From the NCBI RefSeq assembly GCF_017939745.1, contig NZ_JAGKQQ010000001.1, positions 1,736,001 to 1,800,000 of the forward strand: 64,000 nt of DNA, written 5' to 3'. The translations under genes were made by a program, and so were the position numbers. This DNA is from Gemmata palustris (GTDB lineage: Bacteria; Planctomycetota; Planctomycetia; Gemmatales; Gemmataceae). A model generated the notes under the pieces. It ran no database searches. It saw only the letters and a program-made list of their open reading frames with translations, and was not told the origin of the DNA. Position 1 is the stretch's first letter. Each line of letters starts with the position of its first letter. Shown one piece after another: positions 30,741 through 55,047 of the stretch.

Positions 30741-33114
30741 ACCACAGCCAACGCCAAGGGCGGCCGTAACGTCGAATCTCTCCACTACGGCGTAACGAAC
30801 CCGTATACGAAGGATGTCGTGTATCCGAGAGATGGCACGTGCTGGCGGCATTCGGCCGTCGAGATGAAACGCCTTCAGGAAGAGGGCAGGTTGTACTGGG
30901 GGTGAATGGGACTGCCACGACTCCTATGCAAGCTATACCTTAGCGAAGCCAAGCCAGGGATGACTACGCCGTCCATTTTGCCAGACATGCCGTTAAATCA
31001 GCATGCTGCCAGAGAGCTTGAGTTGCTGTTCGGTAAGAAATCCATTTTCGACACACCAAAACCCGTTGGTCTCTTACGGCTTCTCACGCATCTCGGCAGC
31101 AGCCCAGGCGATTTGGTCCTTGATTTTTTCGCAGGGGCGGGAAGCCTTGCTGATGCCGTGATGGTACTCAACATGGAAGGTGGATTGGCACGTCGCTACA
31201 TCCTGGTTCAATTCCCTGAGCCTTTAGATCCAAACAATATCGACCAGAAGATGACGGTAGACTTCTGCGACGAAATTGGCAGGCCGCGCAATGTCGCCGA
31301 GATCACAAAGGAGCGTATCCGAAGAGCTGCAAAAAGTACAGATCGGACCACCCCTCTTTGCCGGCGATGCGGGATTTCGCGTTTACAAGGAAGACTCTTC
31401 AAACATCCGGGCCTGGAACTCGAATGCATCCGACATCGGAAAGGACTTGTTCGACGCGGTCGACCACATCGCGGCCGACCGCAGCGAAGAAGACATCCTT
31501 ACCGAATTGCTGCTGAAGCTCGGACTCGACCTGTGCGTCCTGATTGAGCCGAAGCTGATCGCTGGGAGTACGGTCCACAGCATCGGCGGCGGGTGCTGCT
31601 CGTCTGTCTGGCCACGAAGATCGCGGCCAAGCAGGTCGAGCCGCTGGCGCAGGGAATCGTCGCGTGGCACAAGGAACAAAACCCGGCCGGGGAATCGCAG
31701 GTCGTTTTCCGCGATAGCGCGTTCGACAACGACGTGGCCAAGACGAACATGACCGCCATCTTGGCCCAGCACGGGCTGACCAACGTCCGCAGCCTGTGAG
31801 GCCGACCATGAAACTGCACTTTGAAGGCAACCTGGACTACCAGTTGGCCGCCATCGAGGCGGTGTGCGACCTGTTCCGCGGGCAGGAGCAGTGCCGCACC
31901 GAATTCACAGTCACCATGCCCGGCGACCCCGCGTCCCTGTTCGACACCGACAGCAGCGACCTCGGCATCGGCAACCGGCTGCAACTGCTCGACACCGACC
32001 TGCTCAAGAACCTGCGCGACGTGCAACTCCGGCACGGTTTGAAGCCGTCCGAGGAGCTGAAGCAGGACGACTTCAACTTCACCGTCGAGATGGAGACGGG
32101 GACGGGGAAGACGTATGTCTACCTCCGCACCATCTTCGAGCTGAACCGCCGCTACGGCTTCACCAAGTTCGTGATCGTGGTGCCGAGCGTGGCCATCAAG
32201 GAGGGCGTGTACAAGTCGCTCGAAATCACCGCGGACCATCTGCGCGCTCTGTACGGGAACGTGCCGTTCTCGAAGGGCAACAACTACTTCCTGTACGACT
32301 CGTCAAAGCTCGGGCAGGTACGGAACTTCGCCACCAGCCCGCAGATCCAGGTGATGGTCGTGACGGTCGGGGCGATCAACAAGAAGGACGTGAACAACCT
32401 CTACAAGCAGAGCGAGAAGGTCAACGACGAGAAGCCGATCGACCTCATCCGGGCCACCCGGCCGATCGTCATCGTGGACGAGCCGCAGAGCGTGGACGGC
32501 GGCCTTCAGGGTGAGGGCAAGGCGGCCCTGGAACGGATGCGCCCGCTCTGCACGCTGCGGTACTCGGCCACCACGTCGACAAGCACCACATGGTCTACCG
32601 GCTCGACGCTGTGGACGCCTACGAGCAAAAAGCTGGTCAAGCAGATCGAGGTGGCGTCACTGGAGGTCGAGGGCGGGCACAACAAGGCTTACGCCCGGCT
32701 GGTGTCGGTGAAGAGCACGCGGGGCAAGATCACCGCGAAGCTCGAACTGGACGTGCAACAGGGCGCAGGCGTGGTCCGCAAGGAAGTGACTGTCCAGGAC
32801 GGCGACGATTTGGAGCAGACGACCGGGCGGGCCGTGTACGCTAACTGCCGCGTGGGCGAGATTCGCACTGCCAAGGGGCCGAGCTGATCGAAATCAAGGT
32901 GCCCGGCCGGGAACACTGGTTGAAGCACGGCGAGGCGATCGGCGACGTGGACCAGGACGCGGTCAAGCAGCAGATGATCCGCCGGACCATCAAGGAACAC
33001 CTCGACAAGGAGCTGCGACTGCGCCCGCGGGGCATCAAAGTGCTGAGCCTGTTCTTCATCGACGTGGTCGAGAAGTACCGGAAGTACGGCACGGACGGCC
33101 AGCCCCAGAAGGGG

Positions 33115-33887
33115 TAGTGGCCCTAATGTCGGGATTCGTTGTACAGGCGTATGAAATACCACAAGGCGCCGAGGTGGTTCCTGGGGCACTTGGAGAACGT
33201 GAGAGTCTTGCGCACGAGTCGGGCGCATCGTTGTCTCAGGGTAAGCCAGAACCGTTCGATGTGGGCGGTGAGGCCCGTGTCCTTGCCCACGGGTCGATGC
33301 CGGGCGCGTGGGATCACGCCACGGTACGAGGCGAGGAAGTCGGTGTACACGGTGACCCCGGTCCGGTACCCGCGGGAGCGCGTCCCAGAGCCGTTGGGCC
33401 GTGGCTGCGGACCGGTCCCCGAGAACCATTGCGAGCACCCGCCGGGTGCCCAAGTCCAGGGCTACCCAGACCCAATGGACATCACCCTTGGAACCCACGA
33501 AGCTCCACAATTCGTCGGCCTCGATCACGACCGGGCCGCACTTTTTGGGGCGGTCCGGCTCGTGTGGGGTCTCCTGTCGATACAGCTCGTTGACGAACCC
33601 TTGGAGCCACGACCGGGACACCCCGACGGCCCGCGATGGCCCGGATTCCCATGCGCTCGGCCAACAGGCGCCGCACCAGATCCTTCGTGGCCTCCGGGAC
33701 CGGTCCGGTCTTCGGGTCCGCAACGAACCGCCGGTCGCACCCCGGCACCGGAACCCCGGAGTGCCGAGTGGGTGAGACCGTTGCACCACATGGGTCGCAC
33801 CGCACCGGGGCACGGCGGAATCGGGGGACGAGGGGGTTGCGTCCAGCATCCCAACACTTTAGAGCAATCCCAACCGGTGGGCCACTA
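33115..33887. mobile_element. IS1-family insertion sequence in res
   Basis: 773 bp. The ends are GTAGTGGCCC-type inverted repeats with GGGATT further in. The flanks repeat CCCAGAAGGGG (33104-33114 and 33888-33898); because GGG/CCC overlap the ends, the true duplication may be 9 bp, the IS1 norm. Encoded transposase is frameshifted. Confidence 0.85.
33123..33860 (-). pseudogene. IS1-family transposase, frameshifted
   Basis: The two-part IS1 protein is recognisable in pieces on the minus strand: an InsA-like Cys segment ([10 protein letters not shown]), [29 protein letters not shown] with the first Asp, [20 protein letters not shown], then [13 protein letters not shown] with the second Asp, and [20 protein letters not shown] with the Glu, ending in [12 protein letters not shown]. 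At least two frame changes separate them beyond the normal InsA/InsB slip, so it is probably inactive. Confidence 0.8.
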
Positions 33888-34873
33888 CCCAGAAGGGGCA
33901 TGCGCGCGGGCCTTCGAGGAGGAGGAGATCCTGTTCGAGGGGATCGAGGACGGCGGCTGGCAATCCCAACCGGTGGGAAACACCCCGACTACCAGATCCT
34001 GTTCGAGGGGATCGACGCGACGAGCGACGCGACGGAGGTCCACGACGGGTACTTCTCGATCGACAAGAAGGGGGCGTGGCAGGACACCGCCGAGAACAAC
34101 GCCGGCAACCGCGAGAATGCCGAACGGGCGTACAACCTGATCATGCGGGACAAGGGAGCTCCTCAGCCTCGACACGAAACTGAAGTTCATCTTCTCGCAC
34201 TCCGCTCTCCGCGAGGGGTGGGACAACCCGAACGTGTTCCAGATCTGCGCGATCCGCGAGATGGGGACCGAGGGAGCGGCGGCAGACCATCGGGCGGGGC
34301 CTGCGACTGTGCGTGAACCAGCAGGGCACGCGCGAACGCGGCTTCGAGACGAACACGCTGACGGTGGTGGCGACCGAGAGCTACCAGCAGTTCGCCGACA
34401 ACCTCCAGAAGGAGATCGAGGCGGACACCGGCATCCGGTTCGGGGTCGTGGAGAAGCACCAGTTCGCCGCGATCGCGGTCCCGGACGGCAAGGGCGGGCA
34501 CGTTCCGCTGGGGTTCGAGAAGTCACAGGAGCTGTGGGGCACCTGAAGCAGGCCGGGTACGTGGACGGGAACGGAAGGTACAGGACAAACTGCGCACGGC
34601 CATCAAGGACGGCACGGTGGCCCTGCCCGAGGCGTACCATCCCCAGGCGGCAGCGATCGGCGAGCTGCTCCGCAAACTGGCCGGGAAGCTGGACATCAAG
34701 AACGCCGACGAGCGGCGGACGATCAAGACCCGGCAGGCGGTGCTGGAGGGCGAGGCGTTCCGGTCGCTCTGGGACCGCATCAAGCACAAGACCACATACC
34801 GCGTCGAGTTCGACAACGAGAAGCTGATCAAGGACGCCGCGAAGGCGATCGCCGCCGGCCCGCCGGTCGCTAA

Positions 34874-35757
34874 GTGATGTCCCATAAGGGGTTGTCACGC
34901 GGCTTTGTGATATTGGAATTCGGGGTCGGCATATTTGGGTTCGAGTCGGTTGAGCATGAGGTGGATCATGGCCAGTTTGATGAACGCCTCCGCTGACATC
35001 ACGCTTTCCTCCCGGTCCTTGGTGAGCCGCCGGCACGTGCCCAGCCACGCGAACGTGCGCTCCACGGTCCACCGGATCGGCAGCTTCACCCACCCCTTCG
35101 ACCCCTCCGGGCGGCGCACGATGACCAGATCCCACCGGGCGTTGTCCTCGACCCACGCGTAGAGGGCGAAGTTGTGGTACTTGCTGTCCGCGTACATCCG
35201 CACCACCTTGCCGACCGGCTGTCCCCAAGCGGGGAACAGTTCCTGCGCGGCTTGGGCATCGTCCACGCTCGCGGCGGTCACCAGCACGGCCAGCAGCACC
35301 CCAAGGAATCCACGACGATGTGGCGCTTCCGCCCGTCGACGTTCTTGGCGTTGTCCCGGCCCCGCTGCTCGCCGCCGGAGGTCGTGTCCACCGACTGGCT
35401 ATCGACGCTCGCCGTGGTGCGCGCGCATACGGCTTCTCCTGGGTGCGGACCTTCTTGCGGAGCAGGTCGTGTATGGTGTCGAGGGTACCGTTGTGACGCC
35501 ACTCGTCGAAGTACCGCCAGACCGTGGACTTGGGCGGGAAGTCCTTGGGCAAGTAGCGCCACTGGCACCCGGTGCGCAAGATGTAGAACACGGCATCGAC
35601 GACATCCCGCAGGTCGGTCGTGCGGGGCCGACCGCCCGGATAGACCGGGATGTGAGGCTCGATTAACCTCCACTGCTCGTCGCTTACATCGCTCGGGTAG
35701 GATTGGGTTCTCATGAACCATTTTACCCACCCCAACTGCCCCTTATGGGACAGTCAC
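34874..35757. mobile_element. IS5-family insertion sequence in res; parent type of the MITEs
   Basis: 884 bp between exact TAA duplications (34871-34873 and 35758-35760). The right end reads inwards GTGACTGTCCCATAAGGGG; the left end has lost one base (GTGATGTCCCATAAGGGG). Its outer 14 bases equal those of both MITEs. Excision of 887 bp puts res back in frame at this point (VAKTRVQFRK). Confidence 0.9.
34895..35714 (-). pseudogene. IS5-family transposase (DUF4096 plus DDE), two frameshifts
   Basis: N-terminal DUF4096 part MRTQSYPSDVSDEQWRLIEP, then GCQWRYLPKDFPPKSTVWRY. The frame changes in a GCGCGCGC run near 35420, continues ASVDSQSVDTTSGG (first Asp) and RKRHIVVDSLG, changes again in a GGGG run near 35298, then ADSKYHNFALYAW (second Asp) and WTVERTFAWLGTCRRLTKDR (Glu). 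All catalytic residues remain, so restoring two bases would give a full transposase. IS5 family, IS1031 or ISL2-like by TNA target. Confidence 0.85.
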
Positions 35758-36655
35758 TAAGACGCGGGTGCAGTTCCGCAAGGCCGAGATCGACATCAAC
35801 AAGGGCGGCGTCGACGCCAAGGAGGTGGCGGTTTCGGCCCCGACGGTGCTGGACGAAGGGGACATCGAGCTGCCCGACATCCTGACCGAACTCCAGGACA
35901 AGACGCAACTGACGCGGAAGAGCATCGCCCGCATCCTGACCGAGAGCTGGCGGCTGGGCGACTTCACCCGTAACCCGCAGCAGTTCATCGAGCTTGCCAC
36001 CGCGGCGATCAACAACACGAAGCGGCTCGCCCTGGTGGACGGCATCCGCTACCAGCGGCTCGGCGACGAGCACTACTACGCGCAGGAGCTATTCCGCACC
36101 GAGGAGCTGACGGGCTACCTGAAGAACACGCTCGACGCCACCAAGTCGGTCCACGAGCAGGTGGTCTACGACCTCAGCGGCGAGCGGTCGTTTGCCGAGC
36201 AGTTGGAGAAGAACGAGGCCGTGAAGGTGTACGCGAAACTGCCCGGCTGGTTCAAGGTGCTGACGCCGCTGGGCACGTACAACCCGGACTGGGCGGTGCT
36301 GATCGAGCAGGACGGCGTGGAACGCCTCTACCTGGTCGTCGAGACGAAGCCGTCGCTGTTCGGAATCGACCTGCGGGCGAAGGAGCAGGCCAAGATCGAC
36401 TGCGGGAAGGCCCACTTCAAGGCCCTGCGACAGGGCACCGAAAACCCTGTGAACTTCACCGTCGCCACATCGGCGGACGACGTGTTCCAGACCGCGACCA
36501 CCGCCTTTGCGACTCGGGCGATTATCAAGCAAGCCCGCGACATCGCAAGCGGCTGGCGGGAACAGGGCCGAACGCGGGAAGATCTCGCCGCGGAGTTCGG
36601 CCAGATGCTCGGCGTCAGCCAGGACCAGCCGAAGTGAAAAGGTCACAAAACCGAG

Positions 36656-37962: not shown

Positions 37963-39057
37963 TCAGCCGATCTGAGATGCGACCTTCGCAGAAAGTGTAT
38001 TGTCACGTTCGGCGTAAATCTGCGTAGTGTCCGCCTTACTGTGGCCGAGGGCGACCTGCGCCCCTTCCAACCCGAACAGTCGGCGCGCTTCGGTCGCGAA
38101 CGTGTGCCGGAGCTGATTCGGGGACCACACTTCGATTTTGGCCTTCAGGCACGCGCGCTCGATCGCCTGCCGGTACCCGCTCACGGTGTACGCGGTCCCT
38201 TCGCCCGTGGGGAACACCGGGGCGTTCGGGTCCGCGGTGGCGAACTCCTCCAGTAGTTGCTTGCCCCGCGGACCGATGGCGATGGTTCGCCGCTTTCCGC
38301 GCCATGTGTTCTTGTGCGCGGCCGGGGTGTACATCCAGGTCGCGCCCGACGTGTTGATGTCTTTCATGCGGAGCACGACCGCTTCGCCCGGTCGGGCGCC
38401 GGTGAATCGCTGGAACAGGATCAGCCCGCGCACGCCACGCGGGACCAGTGGGATGACGGCCTGCATGTGGGCGTCCGTGACCGGAGCTACGGGTTCCGGG
38501 TCGGGAGCTTCGCTCCGCCCACGCTGTAATCCGGCGACGCTCGCCAACCGCGCGAGCAGTTCGGCGGGAACCAACTCCTCGGACACGCCCCATTTGAAGA
38601 TCGTGCGCACGCTCGTGACCGCAGCGTTGACGGTCTTCCGGCACCAACCGAGCTCGACCGTGCGCGCACGCAGTGACTTCAGCGCGTTCGGCCCGAACTC
38701 ACCCACTGGAAGGTACGCGAACAACTCCTTCATGGGCTTTGCCACGAGCTTGAAGGCCCAAATCGATGAGGTGGGTTTACCGTCGGCGCCTCGGTAGTGC
38801 CGATCCGCGTGTTCGAGGAACTGGACCAGAAGTTCCGCGACCGTGAGGTCGGTCACACTCGGGGCAGTGACCGCAGTGGGGATACTCGTTCCGAGGGCTT
38901 GCACGCGGCGCGCGTACTCGGCTTTGGATTCGGGGCTTCCGAACACGCCGAGGTAGACCGATTTACGCAGACCACCCGGGAGGGTGACCCGCATCACGGC
39001 CTGACCGGATGGTTTGTGGAATTTGTAGCCGGGGATCGCGTTCTTGGGACGTGACAT
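37963..39057 (-). CDS. Tyrosine recombinase/integrase
   Basis: 364 residues. The catalytic residues are present: Arg in FTGARPGEAVVLRMKD, Lys-type loop in AAHKNTWRGKRRTIAIG, HxxR in NQLRHTFATEARRL, the second His/Trp position in ALGHSKADTT and Tyr in QIYAERDN. An N-terminal SAM-like core-binding domain precedes it. It lies beside tRNA-Ala with the gene start 114 bp from the tRNA 3-prime end, the usual place for integrases that use tRNA attachment sites. It likely inserted the island to the left; the mobile-element genes at 10-16 kb would be the distal end. A terminator ends it. Confidence 0.9.
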   Translation of the reverse strand: MSRPKNAIPGYKFHKPSGQAVMRVTLPGGLRKSVYLGVFGSPESKAEYARRVQALGTSIPTAVTAPSVTDLTVAELLVQFLEHADRHYRGADGKPTSSIWAFKLVAKPMKELFAYLPVGEFGPNALKSLRARTVELGWCRKTVNAAVTSVRTIFKWGVSEELVPAELLARLASVAGLQRGRSEAPDPEPVAPVTDAHMQAVIPLVPRGVRGLILFQRFTGARPGEAVVLRMKDINTSGATWMYTPAAHKNTWRGKRRTIAIGPRGKQLLEEFATADPNAPVFPTGEGTAYTVSGYRQAIERACLKAKIEVWSPNQLRHTFATEARRLFGLEGAQVALGHSKADTTQIYAERDNTLSAKVASQIG

Positions 39058-39171
39058 AGGTGCGACACTCCAGTTCTGGCGTATGACTACGCCTAAACCC
39101 TGAGCTTTCGTGTCGCACGCCGGACCACCCGGCGGTAAGCAAACTGCTTCGGCTAAAGGACTTCTGACGAG

Positions 39172-39244
39172 TGGAGCGAAGGAGAGTCGAACTCCCGACC
39201 TCTTCGTTGCGAACGAAGCGCTCTACCAACTGAGCTATCGCCCC
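39172..39244 (-). tRNA. tRNA-Ala (anticodon CGC)
   Basis: 73 nt cloverleaf on the minus strand: acceptor GGGGCGA with TCGCTCC, D arm GCTC/GAGC, anticodon stem CTTCG/CGAAG with loop TTCGCAA (anticodon CGC), T arm GGGAG/CTCCT with TTCGACT loop. The G3-U70 pair, the alanine identity mark, is present. No CCA is encoded. Probable attachment site of the island. Confidence 0.95.
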
Positions 39245-49434: not shown

Positions 49435-49627
49435 CGCATCGAATGTCAAGAGCGTTGGTCGCACGCCCTCTCCTCCAAATAGCAACACCCAATGAGCGCG
49501 GACCCAGTTTTAAGGCGGTCACAGCTCGGTCGTGTCTGGCTAGCAATCAGATTTTCGTGTGAATTCACTGGATCTACGGTTGCTATCGCGAAAGACTATT
49601 AACTCGGCTCCGAACACACCAACGCCC

Positions 49628-50854
49628 ATGAACGCTGCTCCGATCACCGCTGCACTCCTGCGCCATCAGGCGCGTCGCGCGCAGAACGTGCCGACCGTTT
49701 CCGCGCTTGTGGGACCGCGCGGGCTAGGTCTGCGTGCGTGGCGCGCGTGGGCCGAAGTGGACCAGCGCCCGTGTGCGATCGCATTCAGCGCGGAGTTGAT
49801 CGCCGTTCTCGAAGCCTGGGTGGGTTCCGCGTTTAGCACCGCCACTCCCGCAGAGAGGGCCGTCGAGTGGTTAGCAGCGGTAACCAAACGCGACGCCGAA
49901 GCACTCGCACGCGAAGTCGAGCGGATGACCCGCTACGACCTCGACGTTTTGTGGCGCGCACTCCCGATTGATCCGCACGCACCGGGCGCAATCGCAGCGC
50001 ACATGATCCTGTCCGACCGCGCGGTCGGCACCGATCCCCACCCGGCGCATTTTGTTCGCGCGATCGCGAGCACCACAGATGGCTTAACAAAGGTCGTTCG
50101 CGCGATTACCGCTCTGTACCCGCCGAACGAATGGCCGGCGCTGCTCCTCGTTCCCGCGCCCGACGAACTGCTTCCCGCGTTGCGCCTCCTCGAATCGATC
50201 GCGACCACCGAACCGCGCGTGCCAGTCGCGCTGGCGCTCGATCCCGATGAGTACGAGCGTTTCGGCACGAAGTACCCCGACGCGCGCGTAACGGCGTTCA
50301 TTCGGGAGGGTTTGGTCGAAGTCCGCGGAGTTTCCGGGAACGAATTAAATGAGCGCCTGCGCGGGGCCGGACTCGAACCCCCGGCGACCGCGGTGGACCG
50401 GCTCGCGGCGGACGGCCTGGCGGACGAAGTCGCGACCGCGTTCGTCGATGCGACGCGGGCCGTGCGCGCCCCGACCGCCACGGACCTGACCTCCGACTTC
50501 CGCAGCGTCCACGAAGAGTTCCTGTTCGGGCAACTGGAATCGATGCCACAAACGGCCGGGTTGTTCCGGCCCAATCGCGCGCTCGAGTTCCGTCACGGCA
50601 ATCAGGCCGCCGAAGCCGACCTCCTCGCCGAGACGTTGAAGCTCGTGATCGAAGTCGACGGCGCCCACTACCACCTGACCGCCGACCAGTTCCGCCGCGA
50701 CCGACGCAAGGACTGGCTCTACCAGAAGCACGGCTACATGGTCCTCCGCTTTCTCGCGGAGGACGTGGTGAGCGATCTCGAACTGGTTTTGAACACGATC
50801 CTGGAGGCCGTCGAACTCCGGCGCGCCTCCGCACACCCAACAGGTGCCGCGTGA
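49628..50854 (+). CDS. DUF559 (Vsr-like) endonuclease-domain protein, gene 1 of a three-gene operon
   Basis: 408 residues from ATG 49628. The first 300 residues are a helical/beta domain of no known family (RYDLDVLWRALPIDPHAPGA, PALRLLESIATTEPRVP). The C-terminus, from about residue 310, is DUF559: LEFRHGNQAAEADLLAETLK, then LVIEVDGAHYHLT, RRDRRKDWLYQ and MVLRFLAEDV. The Glu, Asp and E-x-D residues plus the R/K pattern match the PD-(D/E)XK Vsr-like nuclease fold. The stop overlaps the next GTG by 4 nt. It is probably the DNA-cutting part of the system. Confidence 0.75.
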   Translation: MNAAPITAALLRHQARRAQNVPTVSALVGPRGLGLRAWRAWAEVDQRPCAIAFSAELIAVLEAWVGSAFSTATPAERAVEWLAAVTKRDAEALAREVERMTRYDLDVLWRALPIDPHAPGAIAAHMILSDRAVGTDPHPAHFVRAIASTTDGLTKVVRAITALYPPNEWPALLLVPAPDELLPALRLLESIATTEPRVPVALALDPDEYERFGTKYPDARVTAFIREGLVEVRGVSGNELNERLRGAGLEPPATAVDRLAADGLADEVATAFVDATRAVRAPTATDLTSDFRSVHEEFLFGQLESMPQTAGLFRPNRALEFRHGNQAAEADLLAETLKLVIEVDGAHYHLTADQFRRDRRKDWLYQKHGYMVLRFLAEDVVSDLELVLNTILEAVELRRASAHPTGAA

Positions 50855-51861
50855 GCGAACCCGCACTCCTCGACCCGCCGACCACCACCGGCCCGGCGCC
50901 GGCCGTCTCCCTGGCTGATCTGATCCTGCTTCGGTTGCTACCTACGAAGGCAAGCATCCAACTGAAGCAACTGCACACGGACCTGGGGGTATTCTTTCGC
51001 CGCCCGATGTCCGCCGAGCACCTCGAGGACGCACTTACCGAACTCCGCGCCGACGGGTTCGTGGCTCCGAAAGGTCAGCGCGCGACCGACGCGGGCCGCG
51101 CGCGGGCGCTGGAGTACCTGGGAATCGAGAAGCTCCCCCCGAGAGCGAATTGGACGACGGTCCAGGCGAAGTATCTCGTCCCCAGAGCACTCGGCCCATC
51201 GCTGGATTCCGAAGAATACGAGAAGGCTAAAACTGGCGAGAATCTCGCAGCGTTTTTGCTGAAAAGGCAACTACGCCTCCCGGCCAGCACGGGGCACACG
51301 CTGACGAAGATAGTAGATGCGTTGCTCTGTCGCGCCCTCGGCCACCCGGACTTCACAGCACTCAAGACCCTGATCCAAGCGAAGCTCGGAGAGGCCATTG
51401 GCGGCGATCCGATCAGCCAAGCGGACGCGAAAAAGGTGCTTCCCCGCGTTCGCCTGAACGTGTCGCAATTGGACAAGAAAAAATTGTACGCGGCCATACT
51501 TGATGGACGCCTCGACGAACCTCGTACCAGCCGGCACATCGAGCCGGTGATTGACGAGCCGTTCGACCTGGAGATGTTCGCGAACACGGTGAAGTCGGTC
51601 GCACGCACGTGCCCGACCGGGCGGTTCGGTGACAACAAGGTATTCATCAGCCACGTCTGGAAACAGCTTTGCGACGAGCCGAGGTTTGCCGCCCTTGGTT
51701 TCGACGGGTTCAAGGCAAAGCTTATTGAGGCCAACCGCGCCGACCTGCTCACGCTCAGCCGTGCTGACCTCGTGCAACTAATGGACCCGGCCGATGTCCG
51801 TGCGTCCGAAACGACTTACCTCACTGCGACTTTCCACTTTATCCTCGTTGAGGGGAACTGA
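50851..51861 (+). CDS. Uncharacterised winged-helix-like protein, gene 2 of the operon
   Basis: 336 residues from GTG 50851 (GTGA overlap). The N-terminal 110 residues look like a winged-helix (LADLILLRLLPTKASIQLKQ, then MSAEHLEDALTELRADGFVA and RATDAGRARAL). The middle has LPASTGHTLTKIVDALLCRA and PDFTALKTLIQAKLG, and the C-terminus FISHVWKQL and LTLSRADLVQLMDP. No metal or catalytic motif. It probably works as an adaptor or DNA-binding partner of the ATPase, 3 nt downstream. No family recognised. Confidence 0.6.
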   Translation: MSEPALLDPPTTTGPAPAVSLADLILLRLLPTKASIQLKQLHTDLGVFFRRPMSAEHLEDALTELRADGFVAPKGQRATDAGRARALEYLGIEKLPPRANWTTVQAKYLVPRALGPSLDSEEYEKAKTGENLAAFLLKRQLRLPASTGHTLTKIVDALLCRALGHPDFTALKTLIQAKLGEAIGGDPISQADAKKVLPRVRLNVSQLDKKKLYAAILDGRLDEPRTSRHIEPVIDEPFDLEMFANTVKSVARTCPTGRFGDNKVFISHVWKQLCDEPRFAALGFDGFKAKLIEANRADLLTLSRADLVQLMDPADVRASETTYLTATFHFILVEGN

Positions 51862-51864
51862 GCC

Positions 51865-54800
51865 ATGCCGCCCACCGTTGCTTCTGCCCCAACGCCGACC
51901 GCAGTCGATCCGCGAATCGCTGTCTACTGCTCTCCCGACGGCCCCGAAGTATTCAGTACGATCGTCCACGGTAATCAAATCTGGACGCCCGACCCGTTCG
52001 ACGTCGAGGTCGTCCACCCCGAGGCCCGGGCCGCGTTCTCGCGCCTTTTGGATCGTGCATCAGACGCCGACCTGCCACCACACGGCAAAAGCCTGTTGTT
52101 ACTCGGCGAAGCCGGGAGCGGAAAAACCCACCTGATGCGCGCGTTCCGCAATTCGTCTCACAAAACCGGGGCCGGGTACTGCGGTTACATGCAGATGCTC
52201 AGCCGGTCCGACAATTACCCGCGGTACGTTCTTAGCTACTTAATCGATTCGCTCGAACAGCCGTACAAATCGGGCGACCCGACGACCGGACTGGCGCGCC
52301 TGGCCCGTGGACTCCTTGATGCACTGCCGATCAACGCCGACGACCAGGAGCGTCTCTGCGAAGACCACCTCGAACCGGAGGAGATGGCGCGCTTGGTGTT
52401 CCGCTTCGCGGACGCCGCAGTACAGGAAAAGAGATTCGCGCACATCGATATTAATGTGCTCCGGGCGGTGCTGTTCCTGCTGCCCAACGACGGACGCATC
52501 CGGCCAAAAGTGCTGAGCTGGTTGCGTTGCGAAGACCTGCCGAAATACGACCAGGAAGCACTCGGTGGATTGGTCCCACGCCCCGGCTCGGAGATGCCGC
52601 TCAAGACGATCGTAAGTCTCGGTCAACTGATACACGCCGTCCATTCGGCCGCGCTCGTGCTGCTCGTGGACCAAATCGACGAGATCATCGAACAGGCGCG
52701 TGGCGACGTCCAACCGGGCGAACAATTCCGCGCCGCAATCAACGCGCTAATCGATGTCGTCGATGCCCTACCGAACGCGGTCGTCGTGATCGGTTGTCTT
52801 GAAGACCTGTTCAGACAAGCCCAACACGCGCAGTTCTTATCGCGCCCGAAGCTGGACCGGTTGGAACGCGATCCCGCCCCCATCCGGCTCGCGAGTAAGC
52901 GAACAGCGGACGAGATCCGCGCGATGCTCGCGCGGCGCCTAGATGAACTGTACGCTACGGTAACCGTGCCCGCTACAGACAACCCGCTCGCGCCGTACAC
53001 CGTCTCGGACCTGACCCAACTGGTCGGTCTGCGCACGCGCGACGTGCTCGACTTCTTCCGCAAGCACCGCGAGCAGTGCGTTCAGCAGAAACGAATTGTC
53101 CCCCTCAGTCCGATCGACCCCCTCCCACCACCTCCGCCTCCGCCACCCAACGACTTTGCCCGACTGTGGAGCGATTTCCTACCGACCGTCAACGGACCGA
53201 CAGCGAACGAGTCGAAGCTTGCCGAACTGCTCGCGTGGACGATTCGGACCGCGACGGACGAATTGCGCAATGGATTGATCTTTGGCACAGACCCGGACGA
53301 TCGGTTCGTGCAAGTCGAGGTACAAAGTGGGAACGCCGTGGACAAACTCCTGGTCGCAGTGTGCGATAAAACTTCCAAGGGCGGGCACCTCGGCAAACAA
53401 ATCGATGATACCGTGAAGCGCGCTGGTGATCTCCCCGCCGTTCTTGTTCGCTCAACCGACTTCTCAAAGTCACCGAGCACGGGTATTGCAAAACAGCTCG
53501 CGCAAATATGCGCCCCCGTTGGAACACACCGCAAGACGGTGATCTCGAACACGGACTGGCGCGCAATGACCGCGTTCCGCACGTTCGAGCAGCGGCACCG
53601 TAACGAGCCGGGTTTCGTGGATTGGCACAAGACGGCGCGCCCGCTAGTCACGCTGCCTTCACTTCGCAAGATTCTCGATCTCGACAAACTCGAAGCCGCC
53701 GGTCCCCCGAAGCCACTTCCACCCGCCCCACCGCTTCCTCCCGAGGGGAAGCCGAAGGAGATCACACCCACAGTCACCCCACAGGCTCCCGTCACAAAGT
53801 TTGATGCGATCCGGTTCGGGCTGACGCGGAGCGCGGTTGCGGCGCCGGTCGAGTTGCAGCCCAAGTCGATGTGTCGGCACGCGGCGTTTCTCGGGAGTCC
53901 CGGGAGCGGGAAGACGACGGCCGCGCTCACCATTATCGAGCAGTTACTCCTGTCCGGCATCCCGACGGTGTTGCTTGATCGCAAGGGGGATCTCGCCCGG
54001 TACGCGGACCCGACGGCGTGGACCGCGCCCGAACCCGACCCGGATCGCGCGGCCCGGCGTGCCCAACTCCAGGAAGCAATCGATGTGGTCCTTTACACAC
54101 CCGGCGCCGACCGCGGGCGCCCGCTCGCGATCTCGGTGGTTCCGTCTGACCTCGCTTCAGCGCCGACCGCGGACCGCGAGCAGACCGCGCAGTTCGCAGC
54201 AGCGGGGCTCGGCGTGATGATGGGTTACAAGTCCCGAACGCCCGACCCAAAGCTCGTCATCTTGCAAAAGGGCATCGAAACACTGGCGGCCGCGCCCGGT
54301 CAGACGGTCAGCGTGAGAGCGATTCAGCGGCTGGTCGCGGATCAGGACGAAGCACTGCTGGCACAGTTCGATGGACAATTTGAGGCCAAACACTTCAAGA
54401 ATTTGGCGACGGACCTGCTGACGCTCTCCCTTCAGCACCGTCGCTTGCTCGATGGCGCCGAATCCCTGGACGTGGACGCGCTACTCGGGCGCGGGTCGGG
54501 CACGGCACCGGGTAAGACGCGGCTGAGTGTCATCAACACGCAGTTCCTGGGCGACGCGACGACGACGGACTTCTGGGTGTCGCAGTTGTTGCTCGCGGTG
54601 GACCGGTGGCGGGCGAAGAACCCGGCGCCAGAAGGCGCGCTCCAGGCCACGTTCCTGTTTGATGAGGCCGATTTGTACCTACCAGCCGTCGGAAAGCCCG
54701 CGACGAAGGGGCCGATGGAGAGCCTCCTGAAGCGGGCACGTTCGGCGGGAATCGGGTTGTTTCTCGCGACGCAGAGCCCCGGCGATCTCGACTACCGATG

Positions 54801-55047
54801 TCGGGACCAGATACTGACGTGGCTCATCGGGCGCGTGAAGGAACCGGTCGCGATCGGGAAACTGAAGCCGATGCTGGAAGCGAAACCGGGTGCCGCGGAC
54901 AAACTCGCCGAGCAAAAAGCCGGCGAGTTCTACCTCGTGCGCGAAGGCGACATACAGCCCGTGAACGCGGCCCGAAACCTGATCGCAACGGAACAGCTTC
55001 CAGAGGACCGCATCCTCGCTCTCGCACGCGGAAAAAGTGCGATGTAA
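51865..55047 (+). CDS. Double ATPase: AAA-like N-half plus HerA/FtsK-like C-half, gene 3 of the operon
   Basis: 1060 residues. Half one has Walker A LGEAGSGKTHLMR at residues 80-91 and Walker B near 266 (VLLVDQIDEIIEQ); its YLIDSLEQPYKSGDPTTGL and later helices fit an AAA or STAND-like fold. A proline linker (near residue 420) leads to a 240-residue segment with a possible nuclease-like VEVQSG stretch. Half two is HerA-like (COG0433): LGSPGSGKTTAAL near 675, TVLLDRKGDLARY, Walker B FLFDEADLYLP near 930 and FLATQSPGDLDY. HerA-type ATPases pair with nucleases in defence (HerA-Sir2, HerA-DUF4297). Start is ATG 3 nt after the gene 2 stop. Confidence 0.75.
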   Translation: MPPTVASAPTPTAVDPRIAVYCSPDGPEVFSTIVHGNQIWTPDPFDVEVVHPEARAAFSRLLDRASDADLPPHGKSLLLLGEAGSGKTHLMRAFRNSSHKTGAGYCGYMQMLSRSDNYPRYVLSYLIDSLEQPYKSGDPTTGLARLARGLLDALPINADDQERLCEDHLEPEEMARLVFRFADAAVQEKRFAHIDINVLRAVLFLLPNDGRIRPKVLSWLRCEDLPKYDQEALGGLVPRPGSEMPLKTIVSLGQLIHAVHSAALVLLVDQIDEIIEQARGDVQPGEQFRAAINALIDVVDALPNAVVVIGCLEDLFRQAQHAQFLSRPKLDRLERDPAPIRLASKRTADEIRAMLARRLDELYATVTVPATDNPLAPYTVSDLTQLVGLRTRDVLDFFRKHREQCVQQKRIVPLSPIDPLPPPPPPPPNDFARLWSDFLPTVNGPTANESKLAELLAWTIRTATDELRNGLIFGTDPDDRFVQVEVQSGNAVDKLLVAVCDKTSKGGHLGKQIDDTVKRAGDLPAVLVRSTDFSKSPSTGIAKQLAQICAPVGTHRKTVISNTDWRAMTAFRTFEQRHRNEPGFVDWHKTARPLVTLPSLRKILDLDKLEAAGPPKPLPPAPPLPPEGKPKEITPTVTPQAPVTKFDAIRFGLTRSAVAAPVELQPKSMCRHAAFLGSPGSGKTTAALTIIEQLLLSGIPTVLLDRKGDLARYADPTAWTAPEPDPDRAARRAQLQEAIDVVLYTPGADRGRPLAISVVPSDLASAPTADREQTAQFAAAGLGVMMGYKSRTPDPKLVILQKGIETLAAAPGQTVSVRAIQRLVADQDEALLAQFDGQFEAKHFKNLATDLLTLSLQHRRLLDGAESLDVDALLGRGSGTAPGKTRLSVINTQFLGDATTTDFWVSQLLLAVDRWRAKNPAPEGALQATFLFDEADLYLPAVGKPATKGPMESLLKRARSAGIGLFLATQSPGDLDYRCRDQILTWLIGRVKEPVAIGKLKPMLEAKPGAADKLAEQKAGEFYLVREGDIQPVNAARNLIATEQLPEDRILALARGKSAM

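Follow-up and report, generated by a model that had tools for sequence, protein, structure and literature searches.

What does a compact operon of Gemmata palustris that joins a DUF559 nuclease to a large HerA-type ATPase encode, a defence machine, a chromosomal DNA-processing complex or part of a mobile element, and to which of the described systems is it related? The window considered here, a stretch of 64,000 nucleotides of contig NZ_JAGKQQ010000001.1, carries this operon in intact form. Judged by its domains and by comparative genomics, the operon probably encodes an accessory machine that restricts the DNA of invaders, one of the HerA/FtsK-capture type.

Organisation of the operon

The operon and its genes, delineated by ORF calling, are as follows:

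49628-55047 (5.4 kb), plus strand: three-gene operon, g1-g2-g3, all intact
49628..50854, plus strand: g1 (408 aa), degenerate-P-loop AAA+-like fold followed by a C-terminal DUF559 endonuclease (Vsr/PD-(D/E)XK-type)
50851..51861, plus strand: g2 (336 aa), winged-helix-type adaptor
51865..55047, plus strand: g3 (1060 aa), AAA+ ATPase, REase-like middle domain and HerA/FtsK ATPase

The genes are tightly packed, g1 and g2 overlapping by 4 nt (50851-50854) and g2 and g3 being separated by a 3-nt gap (51862-51864); these coordinates, the start at 49628 and the integrity of all three genes agree with those given in the original prediction. An alternative GTG start of g1 exists at 49559, but the alignment of homologues begins at the ATG at 49628. 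The operon consists of exactly three genes, since the upstream neighbour, a divergent MarR gene, runs off from g1 and the downstream one, a convergent short-chain dehydrogenase gene, faces g3, from which its end is 7 nt away. A search for promoter-like sites at the operon gave nothing above chance, and the inverted repeats around it were short and chance-like only.

The flanks are ordinary genes, and the operon lies about 10 kb outside a defence island. The island itself (17177-39244) ends at a tRNA-Ala gene (39171-39244) and a tyrosine-integrase-like gene (37966-39057, assigned by eye) and encodes a cytosine methyltransferase, a Mokosh-like helicase, an HKD+Snf2 helicase (C3a139) and a type III methyltransferase. 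The type III restriction gene in the window, within 31796-36634, appears to be broken; the segment 31796-32884 corresponds to the first third of the REase_III profile and 35768-36634 to its last quarter. The two nearest relatives lack the operon; their dehydrogenase flank is collinear and homology ends 5 nt past the g3 stop codon. In the relative G008 the left and right flanks are 2.1 Mb apart. A clean empty site was not obtained, because the genus is heavily rearranged.

Domain composition of the three proteins

The domains identified in g1 and g3 are:

50506..50830, plus strand: DUF559 nuclease domain of g1 (residues ~293-401), from Pfam, the alignment of relatives and a PDB profile match
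51997..53100, plus strand: AAA+ domain of g3 (residues ~45-412), Walker A GEAGSGKT at 81-88, Walker B VLLVDQ near 265-270
53149..53700, plus strand: apparent REase-fold middle domain of g3 (residues ~429-612), from a model and structural matches
53800..55044, plus strand: HerA/FtsK domain of g3 (residues ~646-1060), Walker A at 677-684, Walker B FLFDEA, RARSAG arginine, ATQSP sensor Q

The Vsr-like DUF559 domain that had been noted at the end of g1 was confirmed by Pfam (2e-9, above the cut-off), and a profile built from 18 g1 relatives matched the endonuclease-like protein 3hrl of the PDB (1.5e-7). Residues E296, N316, D331, E342, D344, D358, R359 and D362 of the nuclease are invariant (18/18 relatives). 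The preceding 300 residues had been described as a region of unknown fold; this account had missed an AAA+-like fold. The model of the first 295 residues (pLDDT 82) gave structural matches to Cdc6, ORC, TnsC, MuB and RdrA with Z about 9-10, and Foldseek alone returned no significant match for it. The alignment of relatives reveals that the Walker A lysine is absent from most members of the g1 family, and in hhalign the P-loop regions of g1 and of the g3 AAA+ domain align, though not significantly. Based on the model, the N-terminus of g1 is read as a dead AAA+-like domain of ORC/CDC6/TnsC-like appearance.

No Pfam family was found for g2, as had been anticipated; its designation as a winged-helix protein is echoed weakly and in the N-terminus, where a profile of 16 relatives matches solved winged-helix regulators (residues ~18-93, best E=0.003). 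Its last ~100 residues align with the adaptors of subfamily II and of the split variant described below (hhalign E=1e-4, 91 columns); over the whole length the comparison between subfamilies is weak, and only the C-terminal parts align well.

Two ATPase halves, the second HerA-like, had been proposed for g3, and the Pfam matches to AAA_22 at residues 75-164 (1.7e-9) and to DUF87/HerA_C at 656-987 (4e-9 and 1e-9, above the cut-off) agree with that. The first Walker A motif had been placed correctly at 81-88, whereas the second is at 677-684 and not at 675-683. Conservation is complete (18/18 sequences) for the two Walker A motifs, for the second Walker B, for the sensor Q of HerA and for the arginine finger (RARSAG/QARKY); the first Walker B is kept in 17/18, with one D-to-E change. 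The AAA+ domain looks active; its match to the ORC-CDC6-like Pfam family reached 0.015, and the PDB matches of its profile include DnaA, ORC not being singled out. Weak matches were also recorded to TniB in g3 and to TraD and TrwB in its HerA half.

A third domain of g3, at about 430-610 and with a REase fold, was absent from the earlier account. Residues 395-655 were modelled at low confidence (pLDDT 64, below 50 from residue 612), with the order helix, three strands, helix, strand, helix, strand. The top 13 VIA-align rows for this domain were all REase or related folds (Z 6.2-7.7), with matches to VC1899, Can2, EcoT38I, PaqCI, BsaWI, the XisH family and MspJI; Foldseek alone, run with the same low-confidence model, gave mostly Ras-type matches, whereas VIA-align put REase folds first. 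The alignment of relatives contained no conserved PD-(D/E)XK acidic/lysine triad in this domain, and the model points to a REase fold that is apparently catalytically inactive. The domain is homologous between both subfamilies (hhalign E=9e-10), and hhalign detected no homology between it and the equivalent region of the ATPase in the split variant. Past residue 612, in the part of the model with the lowest confidence, no winged helix is evident and helices only are seen.

Distribution, gene order and decay

The operon is conserved across phyla and its distribution is patchy. The form present in the window, type I, occurs in 13 of the 61 Gemmataceae genomes and in two further carriers among a sample of 392 planctomycete genomes, a lower bound, as only a few candidates were scored in each genome; Singulisphaera is also a carrier. 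We compared 17 type I loci of Planctomycetota, namely those with g3 plus enough upstream sequence. The g2 gene adjoins g3 in all of them (17/17) and g1 is present in 15/17, being absent from L041 and L092 and fused with g2 in one locus. Not all 17 are whole: L039 is split by an IS3-type insertion (recognised by eye), L033 carries a frameshift and L034 is truncated where its contig stops. Further broken copies are the remnants L054 and L093. With three DUF559 copies in a 9.2-Mb genome, the chance of one lying within 3 kb of g3 is about 0.2% per genome, and this expectation, set against the gene order in 15/17 type I loci, indicates an association beyond chance.

A divergent subfamily, type II, consists of g1, a shorter g2 (~230 aa) and a g3 of ~1100 aa with 28-31% identity to the g3 of the window, and was found in Planctomycetota, Tsukamurella, Nonomuraea and Methylobacterium, with Methylobacterium aquaticum among its carriers. 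Its g2 is present in 10/10 loci and its g1 in 9/10, the order being complete in 9/10. In Tsukamurella tyrosinosolvens the three genes are annotated as ‘DUF559’, ‘hypothetical’ and ‘DUF87’, and Nonomuraea gerenzanensis, which comes on top of the ten loci, has g1 and g3 separated by a gap that could hold g2. Co-occurrence of the trio in other genomes had been suggested as a check on the original prediction, and the 15/17 type I and 9/10 type II loci bear it out. In one Tsukamurella record, labelled plasmid (L099, 1833-17212), the type II operon lies together with a helicase gene and a VapB/PIN pair between the ribosomal protein genes rplN and rpsQ and so splits a ribosomal gene cluster.

Two other arrangements were recognised. 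In the split variant (L059, 7788-13918; L060, 3609-9284), which comes from the same genus and family, adaptor, AAA+ protein and HerA each have a gene of their own and the HerA bears a Cas4/RecB-like nuclease; it is likely an ordinary HerA/FtsK capture system. The nuclease thus appears to be exchanged around a constant core, DUF559 on a dead AAA+ domain in one case versus a Cas4/RecB-like domain on HerA in the other, as in conflict systems. Four species of one genus (L046-L049) share a locus with g2 and the AAA+/REase-like half of g3 only, without HerA and without DUF559, a form that represents a reduced derivative or decay. Taken together with the two type I loci devoid of g1, it implies either that the nuclease is dispensable in some cases or that these copies are decaying. 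In another relative, L043 (290-6124), the operon adjoins a Cas4-Cas1 fusion (Cas1g 2e-158) as well as a HerA gene in addition to its own.

The g3 of the congener G005 is 46% identical to that of the window and genomes of other genera reach 60-66%, which suggests horizontal transfer. The genes flanking the operon differ between loci. Patchy distribution, differing flanks and some broken copies fit an accessory system rather than a housekeeping one. No relative was found in phage records and viral contigs by searches with single-protein patterns, which distant copies could escape, and a phage origin was rejected within that scope.

Relation to known systems

PADLOC reported no matching system for the operon, and a literature search found no article containing both DUF559 and DUF87. 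The original prediction knew no named system with this exact combination; the parts list of the operon nevertheless matches that of the HerA/FtsK capture systems, which Rakesh, Aravind and Krishnan predicted in 2024 (PMC10853773). The Orc/CDC6 class combines an Orc/CDC6 AAA+ ATPase with HerA/FtsK, a wHTH, an active REase and an inactive REase domain; this inactive domain, placed after the AAA+ core, is the hallmark of the class and is followed by a C-terminal wHTH, and the active REase comes from two families, one of them AbiJ-like (PMC10853773). The phrase ‘FtsK capture’ led to that article only, among the matches listed, and the search found no experimental test of the class.

The operon shares with the class an AAA+ domain, the apparently inactive REase fold after it, a HerA/FtsK ATPase that has both the sensor Q and the arginine finger, a REase encoded separately, a candidate wHTH protein (g2) and the spread as a mobile gene neighbourhood. 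It differs in that a single protein of 1060 aa unites AAA+, inactive REase and HerA, that the nuclease is a DUF559 domain on a dead AAA+-like domain and that no C-terminal wHTH was seen after the inactive REase domain of g3. By its parts list, we file the operon as a probable variant of Orc/CDC6-class HerA/FtsK capture, with an active-looking DUF559 in the place of the active REase.

Other systems resemble the operon in part. BREX-related capture (BRC) systems, described by Rakesh and Krishnan in 2026 (PMC12839542), likewise join an ORC/Cdc6-type AAA+ to HerA/FtsK and wHTH modules, but also possess PglZ, a DUF6079 (BrxC-like) protein and DUF4007, none of which is in the operon. For PglZ and BrxC-like proteins (DUF6079/DUF499) Pfam, NCBIfam and PADLOC gave no match in g1-g3, nor did a Pfam scan of ten genes on the flanks. 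The initial comparison of g3 with the double ATPases of BREX-like systems accordingly holds at the level of the ORC-type AAA+ domain and no further. DndFGH is, like our operon, a restriction module of three genes that includes a REase, HerA/FtsK at the C-terminus of DndH, and DndG as its wHTH protein; unlike DndFGH, the operon has no DndF kinase, SWI2/SNF2 or TRD parts that we could find, and the DndH profile matches weakly and in the HerA part only. In DUF4297-HerA and Sir2-HerA (Nezha) a HerA is also partnered with an effector enzyme, but these are two-gene systems, and g3 contains an AAA+ and a REase-like domain beyond its HerA. Neither DUF4297 nor SIR2 was matched in g1-g3, and the NCBIfam anti-phage HerA models scored far below cut-off. 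DUF4297-HerA, a stack of HerA hexamer and nuclease that cleaves dsDNA, is the closest measured precedent (PMC11291478).

Proposed mechanism and alternative explanations

The following mechanism is drawn from the domains of the proteins and from the proposal published for the capture class (PMC10853773). The g3 protein would assemble as a ring. Its AAA+ domain, together with the winged-helix protein g2 and the dead REase-fold domain, may recognise invading DNA and load onto it, and the HerA/FtsK part would then translocate this DNA at the expense of ATP. The g1 protein could dock through its dead AAA+-like domain on the AAA+ ring of g3, so that the DUF559 nuclease would be held against the pumped DNA and the invader cut. 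We infer both the target of cutting and defence as the purpose. Self DNA might be spared by a preference for DNA ends, by replication state or by a signal triggered by infection; the operon encodes no modification enzyme. It is possible, though somewhat less likely than not, that the trio makes up a defence system in its own right, found in three or more phyla, in which the nuclease, joined to an inactive ORC-type AAA+ domain, docks on an active double ring of AAA+ and HerA and cuts the DNA being pumped, self being spared without modification. Abortive infection would be a special case of the main explanation: the complex would sense infection and DUF559 would destroy host and phage DNA together. 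DUF4297-HerA acts by abortive infection (PMC11291478) and the operon encodes no self-protecting modification, and we treat this version as possible, though less likely than not.

A chromosomal DNA-processing complex was the alternative raised originally; it would be a processing or repair complex of the HerA-NurA kind, acting in end resection or segregation with no part in defence. A HerA with a nuclease does resect DNA ends in archaea (PMC12977600), and the operon does reside among ordinary chromosomal genes, but a repair complex would hardly be confined to 13/61 Gemmataceae and few other planctomycetes or exist in several broken copies; neither a NurA nor an Mre11/Rad50-like partner is in the operon, and its REase-like domain is apparently inactive. 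Given this distribution, we regard such a function as unlikely. Resemblances to transposition and conjugation proteins, TnsC and MuB for the g1 N-terminus and, weakly, TniB for g3 and TraD and TrwB for its HerA half, would speak for a mobile-element module in which a TnsA-like nuclease, a TnsC-like AAA+ and a HerA/T4CP-like pump act on the element's own DNA. The operon has no transposase or relaxase, though; the inverted repeats are of the chance-like sort already mentioned, no element ends are seen despite the differing flanks, and the pattern scans of viral contigs and phages did not find the module. A transposon or conjugative module was rejected for the missing ends and enzymes, and we consider this reading quite improbable.

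MADS is an eight-gene set with a DNA methyltransferase. Of the PADLOC profiles, its mad8 scores best on the HerA half of g3 (E=2e-20, and up to 9e-27 in subfamily II), which speaks for membership. The match is confined to the HerA domain, g1 and g2 match no further mad profile, no methyltransferase was present among the flanking genes scanned, and the operon, with its three genes, is bounded on both sides. Moreover, the mad8 profile is non-specific, since an unrelated HerA of a relative matches at 9e-21. Membership in MADS was rejected on these grounds and is extremely improbable.

Comparative genomics is in favour of a defence role for the operon. Its classification as a nuclease-ATPase system of defence type, put forward originally, is backed by the co-occurrence of the genes, their patchiness, varied flanks and decay, and the Cas4-Cas1/HerA neighbourhood in one relative.

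Significance for HerA/FtsK capture systems

HerA/FtsK capture systems have been predicted from sequence. The operon of Gemmata palustris is compact, with three genes in 5.4 kb, bounded on both sides, intact and equipped with recognisable catalytic residues in its three enzymatic domains, and therefore makes a small test object, which offers a way to ask whether AAA+ loading and HerA pumping feed a nuclease. It also illustrates how nucleases, DUF559 on a dead AAA+ domain here versus a Cas4/RecB-like one on HerA in the split variant, are exchanged around a conserved core.
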